From a virus: a stretch of 21,746 nucleotides of DNA. The position numbers and the translations under genes were made by a program. The stretch covers positions 1-21,746 of IMG/VR virus record IMGVR_UViG_3300042565_001133; one strand, written 5' to 3'. Each line of letters starts with the position of its first letter. Positions within the stretch are counted from its first letter, which is position 1. Below are positions 12,976 through 21,746 of this stretch, piece after piece. The notes under the pieces are model-generated. The model was given only the letters and a program-made list of their open reading frames with translations. It ran no database searches and was not told where the DNA came from.

Positions 12976-13410
12976 TTACCCTCTGCACCAAGCATGTGAA
13001 TGATAATCTTCGGCTAGAAAACCGTAAATGTGCAGGTCGTCATCAACGAATGCGCTGCGCATAACACCTTCTAGCTTGAATCCTAAATGCTCAATGAATT
13101 GTTTACATACCTCATTCTTTCCTCGAACCAAAGCGGTAACACGCGCAGCTCGTAACATTTTGAATGCGTATGAAAAAACCTCATTAAACAAAGTGATCGT
13201 CGCTTTGGGGGTCGCCCACCGGGGTTCCCCTGCGATATTAAGGTCTACGTTACGTGGGGTAAAGTTGCTAAACACCACCACACATTTGAAATCACCTTCA
13301 TCATCAACTAACGACATGGCTCTGAACAACGTAGGTGCAGCTGCAACGTCAAGGCGCTCACGCGCCCAAACTTCCGCTTCTTCCTCTCGTTCAAAACCAA
13401 TAAACTTCAT
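12976..13410 (-). CDS. GNAT-like N-acetyltransferase
   Basis: A 144-residue protein resembling the phage branch of the GNAT fold. The segment LVRGKNEVCKQFIEHLGFKL (94-113) and the following EGVMRSAFVDDDLHIYGF carry the features of the RimJ/RimL-type C-terminal half: N/K-rich turn, helix, GFxLEG, then a beta strand ending in a tyrosine. The acetyl-CoA-binding R/Q-x-x-G-x-G/A signature is not clear, so activity is uncertain. The ATG at 13410 overlaps the upstream stop (TAATG). A start at 13443 would run into the upstream gene. It sits inside the structural operon between a small protein and the ejection proteins, so it may act on a virion or host protein late in infection. The substrate is unknown. 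Confidence 0.68.
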   Translation of the reverse strand: MKFIGFEREEEAEVWARERLDVAAAPTLFRAMSLVDDEGDFKCVVVFSNFTPRNVDLNIAGEPRWATPKATITLFNEVFSYAFKMLRAARVTALVRGKNEVCKQFIEHLGFKLEGVMRSAFVDDDLHIYGFLAEDYHSHAWCRG

Positions 13411-13643
13411 TACTCTAACACCTGACAAAATCTCTCCGCCCACTCGCGCCAGTTGTCAAAACTATACGGCACTGGGAAATTCTCACGCAACGTCATGTTG
13501 TTCAAAAACTGCATTGCCCAGTTTTGCCATTGGTCTTCTATGTCTAAACGGCCAAACGCACCATACGGATCCAAGTCGAGCGCGATTTGGTCTGCCCAAT
13601 CTCGCAGCGACATACCCGTCGGTAGAGTGACGCGAATGCTCAT
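13410..13643 (-). CDS. Small hypothetical protein of the tail operon
   Basis: A 77-residue soluble protein rich in Trp and aromatics (LRDWADQIALDLDPYGAFGR, NWREWAERFCQVLE). The ATG overlaps the hub gene stop by 4 nt (ATGA), and its own stop overlaps the next ATG, so it is translationally coupled on both sides. No signal peptide or membrane segment. A small assembly or chaperone role for the tail is possible from position only. Confidence 0.75.
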   Translation of the reverse strand: MSIRVTLPTGMSLRDWADQIALDLDPYGAFGRLDIEDQWQNWAMQFLNNMTLRENFPVPYSFDNWREWAERFCQVLE

Positions 13644-17448: not shown

Positions 17449-17676
17449 TCAGAGCGATTGGTTTGGGCAGTCATTCTCGCAGAGGCACACCCACTTAGAA
17501 TTGTGTTTTTCTACCTCTTTAACGGTTTCGACGCTGTCTCTGGCAGTGTCATAGCTAAGGGGTTTAGCTATGCGGCAGTAATCACTGATCACCACTGGAG
17601 CGGTCGAACCGGTTGCGCAGCCGCTTGTCACGCACAATGTCAGAAGCGGCAACAACAGTTTCGGCTTTTTTAACAC
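17449..17676 (-). CDS. o-spanin (Rz1-like outer-membrane lipoprotein)
   Basis: A 75-residue lipoprotein. A basic N-terminus (LKKPK), a hydrophobic stretch (LLLPLLTLCV) and TSGC give a signal-peptidase-II site with the mature protein starting at Cys. The lipobox -3 residue is Thr, slightly unusual. The mature part has CRIAKPLSYD and ends in KWVCLCENDC, a cysteine-rich tail. I chose GTG at 17676: AGGAGG at 17691-17686 stands nine bases upstream, whereas a TTG at 17685 would touch the Shine-Dalgarno. The gene overlaps the i-spanin gene by 95 nt in another frame, the classic Rz/Rz1 layout. With the i-spanin it would fuse inner and outer membranes at lysis. Confidence 0.78.
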   Translation of the reverse strand: MLKKPKLLLPLLTLCVTSGCATGSTAPVVISDYCRIAKPLSYDTARDSVETVKEVEKHNSKWVCLCENDCPNQSL

Positions 17677-17800
17677 GGGATTCAACCTCCTTGACGGCGT
17701 CCAATGCAGCCTCTTTGCGTCCCTGCTCGATGAGCTGCTTCTGTTTACACCACGTAAGTGTGGTAGAAAGAACGCTCAGCAGGGACGCAAAAAGTTTCAC
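17582..17800 (-). CDS. i-spanin (Rz-like inner-membrane lysis protein)
   Basis: A 72-residue protein. An N-terminal membrane segment (KLFASLLSVLSTTLTW) is followed by a charged coiled coil (KQKQLIEQGRKEAALDAVKEVESRVKKAE) and a basic end. The GTG start at 17800 is one base after the holin stop and gives a proper N-terminal membrane anchor. A TTG at 17845 would lie inside the holin gene. It is shorter than lambda Rz, but order, topology and the overlapping downstream lipoprotein support the role. The o-spanin ribosome binding site lies inside this coding region. Confidence 0.75.
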   Translation of the reverse strand: MKLFASLLSVLSTTLTWCKQKQLIEQGRKEAALDAVKEVESRVKKAETVVAASDIVRDKRLRNRFDRSSGDQ

Positions 17801-18468: not shown

Positions 18469-19194
18469 TCAATGTTTGGTACTGGCCTCCGACGCTGCGT
18501 AGACGCCGGAGAAACAATACGCGCCAAAATGCCCAAGCTCGCACCATGGCGCGGCCCAGACCGTTCCTTTATATTTACGATATTCGTGGCAGAAATGATA
18601 GTCCTCGGACAGCAGTTGCCCATCCGTTACGCCAACTTGAAAAAAGTCGTAGACGGGCTGGTTGTCCGGGATGCTCGCGCCGCCGTTCGTGTACGTCTGG
18701 GTGTGTGGCGCAAGGTCTTCAAACACATCGCGGCGGATCAGCATAAAGCCGGTGCCGATGTGCTTGACCTGAAACGGCTCGTTTGCGTTGACCATGTCGT
18801 GGCCGTCGAGCTTGTTGAGGTTAAAGATGCCCGACAGTGTGGCGAGGTTTTTGTGGCCCAGCACCGCCCCCTGCCGCACCCGGTCCCAGTTCATGCCTTT
18901 CATTGGCACCGGGCCGCCGATGATGCCCTTGTCGGCCTTGATCATCAGGGCGATGTCGTTCGCCCGGAAACGCTGGTCGGCGTCGATAAACATCAGGTGG
19001 GTGGCGTCTTCCATTTGCAGGAAGTGGTGGGCGATGGTGTTGCGCCCACGCTGGATCAGGCTCTCATTGCCGAGGAAGATGCAGGTCAGTTTGATGTCGT
19101 ACTGCATACACGCCTCCTTGAGAGCCAGAAGGCTCTGCGTGTATTCGGTGCACATCATGCCCCCGTAGCAGGGCGTGCCGATGACGAGGTGCAT
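18469..19194 (-). CDS. GT-A fold glycosyltransferase
   Basis: A 241-residue predicted glycosyltransferase. MHLVIGTPCYGG opens with a nucleotide-binding strand. HLMFIDADQRF holds a DxD-type metal/sugar-nucleotide motif (Asp71, Asp73). GTGFMLIRRDVFE (147-159) and SEDYHFC (196-202, acid for acceptor activation) follow the usual GT2-like order. The donor and acceptor are unknown. It may modify host envelope glycans, virion proteins or DNA. The ATG at 19194 overlaps the upstream stop (TGATG). The gene is GC-rich (about 60%) relative to the endolysin and tail genes, so it may be a recent arrival. A purely metabolic role is less likely in a late operon. Confidence 0.8.
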   Translation of the reverse strand: MHLVIGTPCYGGMMCTEYTQSLLALKEACMQYDIKLTCIFLGNESLIQRGRNTIAHHFLQMEDATHLMFIDADQRFRANDIALMIKADKGIIGGPVPMKGMNWDRVRQGAVLGHKNLATLSGIFNLNKLDGHDMVNANEPFQVKHIGTGFMLIRRDVFEDLAPHTQTYTNGGASIPDNQPVYDFFQVGVTDGQLLSEDYHFCHEYRKYKGTVWAAPWCELGHFGAYCFSGVYAASEASTKH

Positions 19195-20012
19195 CACTCA
19201 CCTGTGATCTGGGGGACGTTCGTCAGGCTCTGGCGGTCGAGCAGGCTGAAGCCGCGATAGGCGGCGAACTTGGCGGGATCGTCTGCCCACTTGTCGGCGC
19301 ACGCCTCAAGCCACTGCACGGTCATCTCGTGCGTGGGGGCCTTGCCCTGACTGATGAGTTCGTTTTCGAGGTTGAGGTAGGCAAAGACCTCGGCCTGCGC
19401 CTGCGCGGCGTTGATGCCCAGATCGAAGAGGTAGATCATGTTGCCCTCGTCGATCACGCCGTTGCGGCTGCGGGCGGCGTTGAGCCCCTGCTTCATGCAG
19501 GTCATGATGTGGTAGCGGCACTCCTCCCGCTCGTAATCCTCTTCGGTGATCTCGTCCCTGCCGAGCTTCTCCAGCAGTTGCTTGTGCTGATTGGCGAAGA
19601 AGTTCATCTTGCGAAGCGCGCCGTTGACGTGGTTCTGGGTGCCGTCCAGTTGGCTCTGGATTTCGAGGATTTCGATCTCCAGCATCTCGCGGTCGAGGGC
19701 TTCGGTGGCGGCGGCAAGCTCTGCCTCCTTGCGCTTCAACTCCACCTGCTTCTTGCGCGCGGAGATGTACGCCTCTTGCAGGGCGGACTTGGTGCGGTCG
19801 ATCTCCGCCAGCGTGTGCTTGATCGAGCGGATTGGCGTGATGGCCGTCACGTCCAGCGCCACCTGCATGAACTGGCTGTGCGACTTGTAGAAGTTGCTGG
19901 TGTCCCGCGCGATGGCGGGCAGGCGCTCCTGAATGTTGGCCAGCATCGTGCGATATTCAGGTTTGGCGGCAGCGAGCGCTGTCCCCATGTCAGTGAGTAC
20001 GAGGTCGTTCAT
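19194..20012 (-). CDS. Hypothetical coiled-coil protein
   Basis: A 272-residue soluble protein of unknown function. Residues about 63-150 form a long charged helix with coiled-coil heptads (IDRTKSALQEAYISARKKQV, then EMLEIEILEIQSQL). Residues 160-270 are mixed, with CRYHIMTCMKQG and a Trp-rich end. No signal peptide or membrane segment. The ATG at 20012 has AAGGAG eight bases upstream. Its stop overlaps the glycosyltransferase start. GC is about 65% in sampled stretches, far above the flanking kelch-like repeats (near 45%). Together with the glycosyltransferase it forms a compact GC-rich pair, so a joint function is plausible but unproven. Confidence 0.75.
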   Translation of the reverse strand: MNDLVLTDMGTALAAAKPEYRTMLANIQERLPAIARDTSNFYKSHSQFMQVALDVTAITPIRSIKHTLAEIDRTKSALQEAYISARKKQVELKRKEAELAAATEALDREMLEIEILEIQSQLDGTQNHVNGALRKMNFFANQHKQLLEKLGRDEITEEDYEREECRYHIMTCMKQGLNAARSRNGVIDEGNMIYLFDLGINAAQAQAEVFAYLNLENELISQGKAPTHEMTVQWLEACADKWADDPAKFAAYRGFSLLDRQSLTNVPQITGE

Positions 20013-20041: not shown

Positions 20042-21067
20042 TTATAGGCCGCCATGGGCGCTGGAACAGCCGGAAACACCGCTGCGTGCAACCGTTAGAT
20101 CACCAAAATCAGTTGCGTTGCCGGTGGTGGCAATTGTAACGAAATCAATAACGTTCTGTCTAGTGTAAGAAGTGTTTTTCCCACCAGCAAAAACACCGCG
20201 AGTGCTAGACGCGCAACCAGCCAATCCCGTTCTTCCAACAGTCAAATCGCCAAAATCAACTGCGTTACCTGTAGACGCAATAGTTATGTACGAAATTGTG
20301 TTAAAACCCGTAATGCCTTCCCCGCCCCCAAAAAGGCCCCGTGTCGAGTTGGCGCAACCCGCAAGCTCAACTGGCGTGCCTGTCAAATCACCAAAATCCG
20401 TAGCGTTGCCAGTGGAAGCAATTGTTACATAATCGATGACATTCAACAAAGATGCGTCTATCCCACCAGCAAAAACGCCCCGCGTGGCTGAAGAGCAAGC
20501 CCCAAGTGCGTATCGCCTAACAGTTAGGTTTCCAAAACTGATCGCATTACCCGTACTCGCGATAGTGACGTAGCTTATTACGCTTGACTGGGGAGTAATG
20601 CCGTCATTCCCGCCACCAAAAAGCCCACGGGTAGATGAAGAGCAACCCGCCGCGTCTCTTACTGACGCTGTCAGAGACCCAAAAGAAGAGGAAGACCCAG
20701 TGGTCGCAAATGTTACGAAACGAATTGCGGTTCCACCGCCTCCGAATGTAGTGGTGCCCCCACCCCATAAGCCGCGAGTGGAAGAGGAGCACGAAGCCGT
20801 CCATGCAACCTCAGCCCCTAGATTGCCAAAAGTAGTTGAATTGCCCGCTGTGGAAATGTTTATATAATCAATCGTTTTAGTATCAGTGTCGGTTCCGCCT
20901 CCAAACAGCCCAATCGGCGCCACATTCCCCGCAATTGGCCACAGCCCCTGCTTCGTCCAGAAGGCCGCCTCGGCCAGCGTCCACACGCCGGGAGCCGCGC
21001 CGTTCTGGAACGGGCCAGCGGGCGTGACGGGTGTCTTGCGGATCAAGCCGCCGGGCCAGTTAGACAC
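20042..21067 (-). CDS. Kelch-like repeat tail adhesin (paralogue 2)
   Basis: A 341-residue protein. Residues 1-52 are a conserved-looking N-terminal module (SNWPGGLIRKTPVTPAGPFQ, then GVWTLAEAAFWTKQGLWP), probably a virion attachment domain. Residues 53-341 are six repeats of 46-49 residues with the scheme RGLFGGG - xIDYVTIATTGN - FGDLTVAR - AGCSSST. The di-glycine strand followed by a Tyr-containing strand resembles kelch beta-propeller repeats, and six copies could make a six-bladed propeller. It ends in CSSAHGGL. The GTG at 21067 is preceded by GGAGG (8 nt spacing) in the end of the upstream gene. An upstream in-frame start at 21160 would read through that gene. Likely a receptor-binding or decoration protein. 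The fold is inferred. Confidence 0.7.
   Translation of the reverse strand: MSNWPGGLIRKTPVTPAGPFQNGAAPGVWTLAEAAFWTKQGLWPIAGNVAPIGLFGGGTDTDTKTIDYINISTAGNSTTFGNLGAEVAWTASCSSSTRGLWGGGTTTFGGGGTAIRFVTFATTGSSSSFGSLTASVRDAAGCSSSTRGLFGGGNDGITPQSSVISYVTIASTGNAISFGNLTVRRYALGACSSATRGVFAGGIDASLLNVIDYVTIASTGNATDFGDLTGTPVELAGCANSTRGLFGGGEGITGFNTISYITIASTGNAVDFGDLTVGRTGLAGCASSTRGVFAGGKNTSYTRQNVIDFVTIATTGNATDFGDLTVARSGVSGCSSAHGGL
20045..20911 (-). repeat. Six tandem kelch-like repeats (about 138-147 bp each)
   Basis: Units of 46, 49, 49, 47, 47 and about 47 residues (plus C-terminal tail) begin at GLF/GVF and end at ST R. Copies vary in the loop after GGG and in DNA wobble positions, so they are diverged rather than freshly copied. 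The phrases encoding TGNATDFGDLT recur through the array. Confidence 0.85.
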
Positions 21068-21068
21068 G

Positions 21069-21746
21069 TTATAGTCCTCCGTGGCTGTCAGAGCAGGCGG
21101 CGGGCTGCAAGTTTGCAGAAATAAGATCGCCGAAGTCTGTTGCGTTGCCAGTGGTTGCAATCGTCACAAATTGAATGGTGTTTTCGGCACTACCTCCTTC
21201 GCCGCCTGCAAACAGCCCCCGCAAATTCGAAGAACACGAGGTCAAGTTTCTTTGCGCAGCCATAAGGTTCCCAAAACTCGTAGCATTGCCCGTGGTAGCG
21301 ATAGTTACATACCCTATAGTAGCAACGTCACTGCCGGTATTCCCGCCACCAAACAAACCACGCGTGCTAGACGAGCATCCGGCAAGAAGCCAAGGAGCTA
21401 CCGTTAAGTCCCCGAAGTCAATGGCGTTACCAGTCGTCGCGATGGTTACATAATCAATTATATTTGATGTTGTTGAGCCGCTGTCCAGACCCCCACCAAA
21501 CAAACCCCGCGTAGAGGAAGAGCATGAGGCCGAACCTCGGCGGGCTAAAGTCAAATCACCAAAATCAATTGCGTTACCGGTCGTAGCGATAGTGATGTAT
21601 TCTATCGTATTTGAGATGCTTCCACTTGTATTAACACCTCCTCCAAATAGGCCGCGCGTGCTAGAGGAGCAACCAGCAAGCAATGAACGGCCATCTAACA
21701 AGTCACCAAAATCAGTCGCATTTCCGGTAGTTGCTATTGTTACATA
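21069..21746 (-). CDS. Kelch-like repeat tail adhesin (paralogue 1), 5'-truncated by window edge
   Basis: At least 225 residues, open to the right edge of the window. The first residues seen (YVTIATTGNATDFGDL) are already mid-repeat, so the start lies beyond 21746. Four full repeats and one partial repeat are visible, of the same family as the downstream gene, ending in CSDSHGGL, the same C-terminal motif as its paralogue (CSSAHGGL). Single-base spacing to the next start and the shared ending point to tandem duplication. Probably a second surface or receptor-binding protein. The missing N-terminus would show whether it has the same attachment module. Confidence 0.72.
   Translation of the reverse strand, partial: YVTIATTGNATDFGDLLDGRSLLAGCSSSTRGLFGGGVNTSGSISNTIEYITIATTGNAIDFGDLTLARRGSASCSSSTRGLFGGGLDSGSTTSNIIDYVTIATTGNAIDFGDLTVAPWLLAGCSSSTRGLFGGGNTGSDVATIGYVTIATTGNATSFGNLMAAQRNLTSCSSNLRGLFAGGEGGSAENTIQFVTIATTGNATDFGDLISANLQPAACSDSHGGL
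21072..21746 (-). repeat. Kelch-like repeat array of the truncated paralogue
   Basis: Units start at GLFGGG or GLFAGG and carry EYITIATTGNAIDFGDLT-type phrases, with CSSSTR closing each full copy. The array continues past the window edge. Copies in this gene are more alike than those in the downstream gene's first two units (TKTIDYINISTAGN, TAIRFVTFATTGS). Confidence 0.82.
21076..21080 (-). promoter_or_regulatory. Shine-Dalgarno embedded in HGGL codons
   Basis: GGAGG is made by the two glycine codons (GGA GGA) of the C-terminal HGGL of the upstream paralogue and stands 8 nt before the GTG of the next gene. It decides the GTG start at 21067 and couples the two genes. Confidence 0.75.

Follow-up and report, generated by a model that had tools for sequence, protein, structure and literature searches.

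The two adjacent repeat genes (A and B) at the right end of the analysed stretch of DNA, a 21,746-nt virus record referred to here as the window, both lie on the minus strand and carry six repeats each at full length, which in B are confidently predicted to form a six-bladed β-propeller that is kelch-type by fold. Comparison with their relatives indicated that the diversity of these proteins probably arises through the replacement of entire propellers between conserved joints, and we consider it probable that, as a whole, the genes are best explained as adhesins with exchangeable, adaptor-anchored propeller tips. The preliminary description of the locus had been right in what it observed and in its guess of the fold, and its reading of the proteins as adhesins is likely; the unequal recombination of repeats that it had offered as the mechanism should give way to whole-propeller exchange.

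Organization of the propeller genes

The features of the locus, with coordinates in the window unless contig L004 is named, are given below.

20042–21067, minus strand: gene B, 341 aa, adaptor and six-bladed propeller, GTG start
20924–21067, minus strand: N-terminal adaptor of gene B, residues 1–48 (MSNWPGG...GVWTL...QGLWPIAGN), common to lectin-type and other modules in relatives
20057–20923, minus strand: propeller of gene B, residues about 49–337, the unit apparently swapped between relatives
20819–20923, minus strand: blade 1 of gene B, three strands, the inner strand coming from the C-terminus
20672–20812, minus strand: blade 2 of gene B
20525–20665, minus strand: blade 3 of gene B
20384–20521, minus strand: blade 4 of gene B
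20243–20371, minus strand: blade 5 of gene B
20096–20239, minus strand: blade 6 of gene B
20045–20092, minus strand: strand that closes the gene B propeller and the CSSAHGGL ending, Gly-Gly codons GGC GGC; last gene, without a Shine-Dalgarno
21069–21746, minus strand: C-terminal 225 aa of gene A, cut by the window end, with CSDSHGGL and the final four and a half repeats before it
21075–21080, minus strand: Gly-Gly codons GGA GGA of the HGGL of gene A, equal to the Shine-Dalgarno of gene B
L004:4040–4996: complete gene A, 319 aa, six repeats
L004:2871–4040: third tandem paralog, 389 aa, FN3 domain and six-bladed propeller, upstream of gene A and just outside the window
19194–20012, minus strand: downstream 272-aa gene, phrog_1409-like, a conserved flank that served to sample relatives

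The contig L004 was 100% identical to the window across a 2919-nt overlap and supplied the full gene A and the third paralog, which is preceded by tail-fibre-like genes, carries an FN3 domain (Pfam fn3, E = 2.5e-11) and has the same repeats as A and B. The two tandem paralogs described before are thus the adjacent genes A and B, but their actual number is three. Gene B starts at the GTG of 21065–21067 behind the ribosome site GGAGGA (21075–21080), and the upstream TTG of its longest ORF is not the start. The repeats of both genes are 46–49 residues long; the “at least ten” repeats counted previously are found inside the window as six in B and about four and a half in A, together with the shared CSxxHGGL ending (CSSAHGGL in B, CSDSHGGL in A). 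The self-alignment proposed as a check bore the repeats out, as the identity at a lag of 49 residues reached 79 matches in A (full length, from L004) and 78 in B, far beyond 1000 shuffles, which peaked at 43 and 47, respectively. Tandem Repeats Finder detected no tandem repeat in the DNA of the repeat genes, so the repeats are diverged.

Elsewhere in the window, a 242-aa gene of phrog_1574 (unknown function; 18469–19197) adjoins the cluster and, by the look of its sequence, may be glycosyltransferase-like, a short lipoprotein-like ORF next to an endolysin-like gene (17449–17685) is by eye possibly an outer spanin, and an Acyl-CoA N-acyltransferase-like gene (phrog_4470; 12976–13443) lies within the structural cluster.

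Predicted fold of the repeat proteins

The structure of gene B was modelled by AlphaFold2 from an alignment of 50 relatives (pLDDT 89.2, pTM 0.84). In agreement with the earlier guess of a β-propeller, residues about 49–337 were predicted to form a closed ring of six four-stranded blades. Foldseek against the PDB placed Kelch domains (KLHL3 and KEAP1) on top with E of about 1e-20, and in VIA-align the Z score was 39.2 against SAKe6BE, a designed six-bladed protein, and 37.7 against Keap1, with rmsd values of 2.0–2.2 over about 280 residues. The propeller opens mid-blade and blade I is completed by the C-terminal CSxx strand (CSSA in B), the last predicted strand spanning residues 319–335. Among 1282 full blades, strand B ends in a double Gly (85% and 93%) and strand C has a Tyr (93%); they lack the Trp conserved in strand D and have a Phe at column 44 (98%). 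The Pfam Kelch model found no match in genes A and B up to an E of 1, nor in L028 and the FN3 paralog up to 0.1. Because of the missing Trp and this lack of a Pfam Kelch match, the proteins are called kelch-type by fold and placed outside the Pfam repeat family. The fold is the basis of the kelch link, as the profile of 50 relatives matched none of the PDB sequences.

A near-identity DNA search of phage records gave no match to the locus. The tblastn search of gene B against phages found none at 1e-5, and a relaxed E added S-SKS1 and one adaptor match only; neither Pfam nor PHROGs held a function name for the propeller. The model of the 12-repeat protein of L028 was moderate (pLDDT 73.8, pTM 0.52), with low confidence at residues 331–341 between the halves. 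As its second half alone matched six-bladed propellers with a Z of 39.6, the prediction fits two propellers and not one twelve-bladed ring.

Constancy of the repeat number

To count the repeats, an HMM of the blade was built from these sequences and run over all ORFs. Complete propeller genes at the 80 loci found through gene B all had 6 or 12 repeats, bar four fragments. A second set of 74 usable loci was picked via the downstream 272-aa gene and is therefore free of selection on the propeller; here 144 genes had 6 repeats, 32 had 12 and five were fragments, so that 6 or 12 repeats were counted in 176 of 181 complete genes. Among loci with 4.5 kb or more of sequence upstream, the commonest layouts were 6-6-6 (21 loci) and 6-6-12 (19 loci), and each of 12 long records held all its propeller copies in a single cluster. 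The number of blades in a propeller is constant at six.

Several irregular genes were also seen. Remnants with two, one or no blade (L116:4587–5003, L074:3994–4194 and L144:2219–2425) resemble deletion products or assembly breaks, and the FN3-propeller gene is broken into two frames of 2 and 4 blades in L037:2645–3867 and L117:3514–4694. In L032, the genes at 1900, 3084 and 4880 share three short blade-sized matches of 92–93% between different propellers, possibly by local gene conversion.

Probable replacement of entire propellers

Downstream of gene B, the window was about 90–100% identical to L018 and L040 in nearly all 40-nt steps, a level that L028 reached some 400 nt farther along, whereas identity to all three was only about 20–80% in the propeller region. 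Through the final part of gene A and the greater part of the gene B adaptor, identity between L028 and the window was again 90–100%. For pairs with a downstream gene at least 95% identical, the median identity was 93% for adaptors and about 57% for propellers. The slots were then compared in pairs with at least 93% nucleotide identity in the downstream gene, and the numbers falling at ≥85, 70–85 and <70% propeller identity were 2/0/36 for F, 4/0/39 for A, 4/0/43 for B first and 5/0/42 for B last. The distribution is two-peaked, with 0 of the 175 comparisons between 70 and 85%; these counts describe a pattern and not a rate, because loci sharing an identical B propeller had been collapsed beforehand and the pairs, which share members, are non-independent. 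The data are metagenome assemblies throughout, in which individual chimeras are possible. The halves of two-propeller genes vary independently, as L123 and L128 are 99% identical in the first propeller and 55% in the last, and L123 and L127 are 63% in the first and 95% in the last. The sample contained 254 distinct propellers. Together, the sequence comparisons suggest that diversity arises through replacement of entire propellers between conserved joints, and further through switches of a gene between a single propeller and a pair, and substitution in the BC and DA loops. No description of such an exchange system was found in the literature, most subscription journals lying outside the search.

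The joints were mapped by comparing codons of the same residue between close pairs. At the 5′ side, codon identity was flank-like through the W of WPxAGN and fell to background about six codons on; at the 3′ side, identity was at background for the S of CS (6 of 18) and flank-like over the final G-G-L codons, of which 51 of 52 were identical. The junctions thus appear to be the end of the N-terminal adaptor and a point inside the CSxxHGGL codons. One propeller has apparently moved from slot to slot: the downstream regions of L115 and L116 are 95.5% identical, the B-slot propeller of L116 is the FN3-slot propeller of L115 (96.8% over 897 nt), and the final CACGGAGGTCTATAACCATG is that of the receiving slot.

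The shared ending as a translation signal

In genes directly before another adaptor gene, GGAGG was found in the HGGL Gly-Gly codons of 110 out of 136, nearly always 11–14 nt ahead of the next start, versus 2 of 84 last genes (Fisher p = 2e-34); it occurred at 116 of 851 internal GG pairs of the repeats. Within the window, gene A ends in CAC GGA GGA CTA TAA C GTG and gene B in CAT GGC GGC CTA TAA. Because of this difference between internal and last genes, the HGGL ending of internal genes appears to be dual-coded, as the protein end and as the Shine-Dalgarno of the next gene. The last genes still carry the HGGL motif (84 of 87), most of them without ribosome-site use, so the shared ending is explained in part only and HGGL has an additional cause.

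One variable face of the propeller

Column entropy over the 1282 full blades located the variable positions at columns 4–6 (the DA loop, after FGDL) and 21–27 (the BC loop, after GG). The BC loop varies in length too, neither loop has any conserved residue, and the AB turn and CD hairpin are conserved. The preliminary description had pointed to variable loops after GGG, and the loops after GG were indeed hypervariable, but the second set after FGDL varies as well. Likewise, where it had called for comparison of repeat number and loops among relatives, the loops were found to be hypervariable and the number constant at 6 or 12. Nonsynonymous to synonymous changes (N:S) in related propellers were 219:151 in the loops and 254:782 in the scaffold, and the loops thus appear to be under much weaker constraint than the scaffold, N:S alone being no proof of dN/dS above 1. 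In Keap1 and KLHL12, the ligand pocket is built by the BC and DA loops (PMC4668279, PMC7333892).

Adaptors, neighbours and probable role

The adaptors of the relatives are joined also to Laminin_G_3 and Gly_rich_2 (both L115), SBBP (L154) and, in L134, DUF7483 with a tail-fibre PHROG; a ConA-lectin protein of phage DSL-LC04 has an adaptor of the same kind. The neighbours of propeller genes include the SU10-type adaptor, which is present in 9 of 12 related long records, tail-fibre families and virion-protein families. From adaptors, neighbourhood and variability, the propeller proteins are most likely particle-bound adhesins of a short-tailed phage, and the tail-adhesin role assigned earlier is thus probable from the shared adaptors and neighbouring families. 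Repeat counts, family relations, the exchange pattern with its boundaries and the codon use are computed results and the fold is a prediction, whereas we infer virion location, receptor binding and homologous recombination as the process.

Assignment of a host through genome contigs was tried and rejected, as the six contigs were scattered over MAGs or single cells of unrelated groups. The propeller relatives L156–L161, binned with bacterial genomes of unrelated groups, are probably phage contigs in those bins.

Proposed explanation and alternatives

Genes A and B and the upstream FN3-propeller gene would encode virion adhesins of a short-tailed phage, in which the constant N-terminal adaptor would fix each protein to the particle and the six-bladed kelch-type propeller would be the tip that binds the receptor. 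One face (AB turns and CD hairpins) would stay near-invariant together with the scaffold, and the other, hypervariable face (BC and DA loops) would present the binding surface. Specificity would shift mainly through whole-propeller replacement by recombination at the adaptor end and the CSxxHGGL codons, and propellers could also be moved between slots or doubled inside a gene. As the HGGL Gly-Gly codons would be the ribosome-binding site of the next gene, a slot would keep its own translation signal upon replacement. We put forward more tentatively, as a possibility somewhat short of even, that the locus works as a combinatorial adhesin system, in which up to four positions (FN3, A, B first and B last) would each draw a six-bladed propeller independently from one large common pool and the CSxxHGGL codons would at once close the propeller, form the exchange joint and provide the ribosome-binding site of the next gene, so that any propeller might be dropped into any slot without harm to folding or translation.

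The preliminary description had proposed that unequal recombination between single repeats changes protein length and hence host range. The repeats are alike enough to recombine, and a few fragments of 0–4 blades and the three blade-sized matches of L032 could be cited in its favour, but the repeat number, fixed at 6 or 12 in all but five of the 181 genes, rejects a mechanism that works by gaining or losing single repeats. Shuffling of single blades as the main mechanism was also ruled against, since blades within one propeller (median identity 53.5%) are no closer than those between propellers (52.6–54.8%), and only four local matches of at least 75 nt at 92% were found among the 254 propellers; the proposal is very improbable. 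A retroelement acting on the loops by mutagenic retrohoming is hardly credible: variable loops on a constant scaffold do look like such targets, but change is all-or-none across the whole propeller, synonymous sites included, and no reverse transcriptase was found in 13 records, none known to be complete, in a search where three control genomes were positive. It is highly unlikely that the exchange pattern is an artefact of assemblers joining strains at the conserved adaptors and endings. The sequences are all metagenomic and their conserved ends around variable cores would let assemblers switch, but different propellers between these flanks would be needed in any case, slot-specific end sequences are retained, and the pattern recurs across contigs of many samples and records of 25–158 kb.

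Kelch domains are typical protein-binding modules, and the propellers could accordingly be intracellular infection proteins that bind host proteins as eukaryotic Kelch domains do and lie near tail genes by chance. This is unlikely, since the adaptors are common to lectin-like and tail-fibre modules, the neighbours are tail and virion-protein genes, and hypervariable exchange is typical of surface-binding parts. That the propellers are tail enzymes (glycan-cleaving depolymerases or oxidases) and not binding modules draws on the propeller folds of several phage tail enzymes and of galactose oxidase. Endosialidases are mentioned in PMC4901313. This reading appears quite unlikely, as no residue is conserved on the presumed pocket face (the BC and DA loops), unlike in an active site, and structural comparison ranks binding Kelch domains and designed proteins highest.

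Comparison with known systems

Modular exchange of phage receptor tips is already known. The proposed exchangeable-propeller adhesins add a case in which the exchange unit and its joints are legible at base level over dozens of natural relatives, with a constant scaffold, one variable face, a fixed blade number and a joint that probably doubles as a ribosome-binding site. The 254 propellers on one scaffold offer a natural library for the evolution of binding specificity on a rigid fold. The closest named sequence family, phrog_19111, is annotated as of unknown function and gains a testable role; the structure-library relatives A0A6J7WZC1 (uncultured Caudovirales) and M4QT40 (Synechococcus phage S-SKS1) are likewise annotated.

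Kelch-type propellers encoded by several genes close together are described in phage CBB and other giant phages, and the kelch protein CBB_552 was found in the CBB virion; these are giant myoviruses, and the parts of that report available to us mention neither cassette exchange nor a fixed blade number (PMC5259590). PRD1 P2 and phiKZ gp131C, as far as they are covered by the citing text, also have propellers at putative receptor-binding positions but differ in having five and seven blades and another architecture (PMC4901313). The adhesin Gp45 of Staphylococcus phage phi11 resembles the present proteins in a β-propeller thought to hold the receptor site, but is five-bladed and trimeric with a helical stem and tower, and no tandem exchangeable cassettes are given for it (PMC4901313). 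The Kelch domains of Keap1 and KLHL proteins (PMC4668279, PMC7333892) share with the phage propeller the six blades, the GG ending strand B, the Tyr in strand C, the C-terminal strand A that closes blade I and the face of BC and DA loops, which is the binding face in Keap1/KLHL, with Z of 37–38 over about 280 residues. The phage propeller differs from them in its identity of about 14%, in its much more regular blades without a Pfam Kelch match, and in lacking a conserved Trp in strand D, with a near-invariant Phe four to five residues later.
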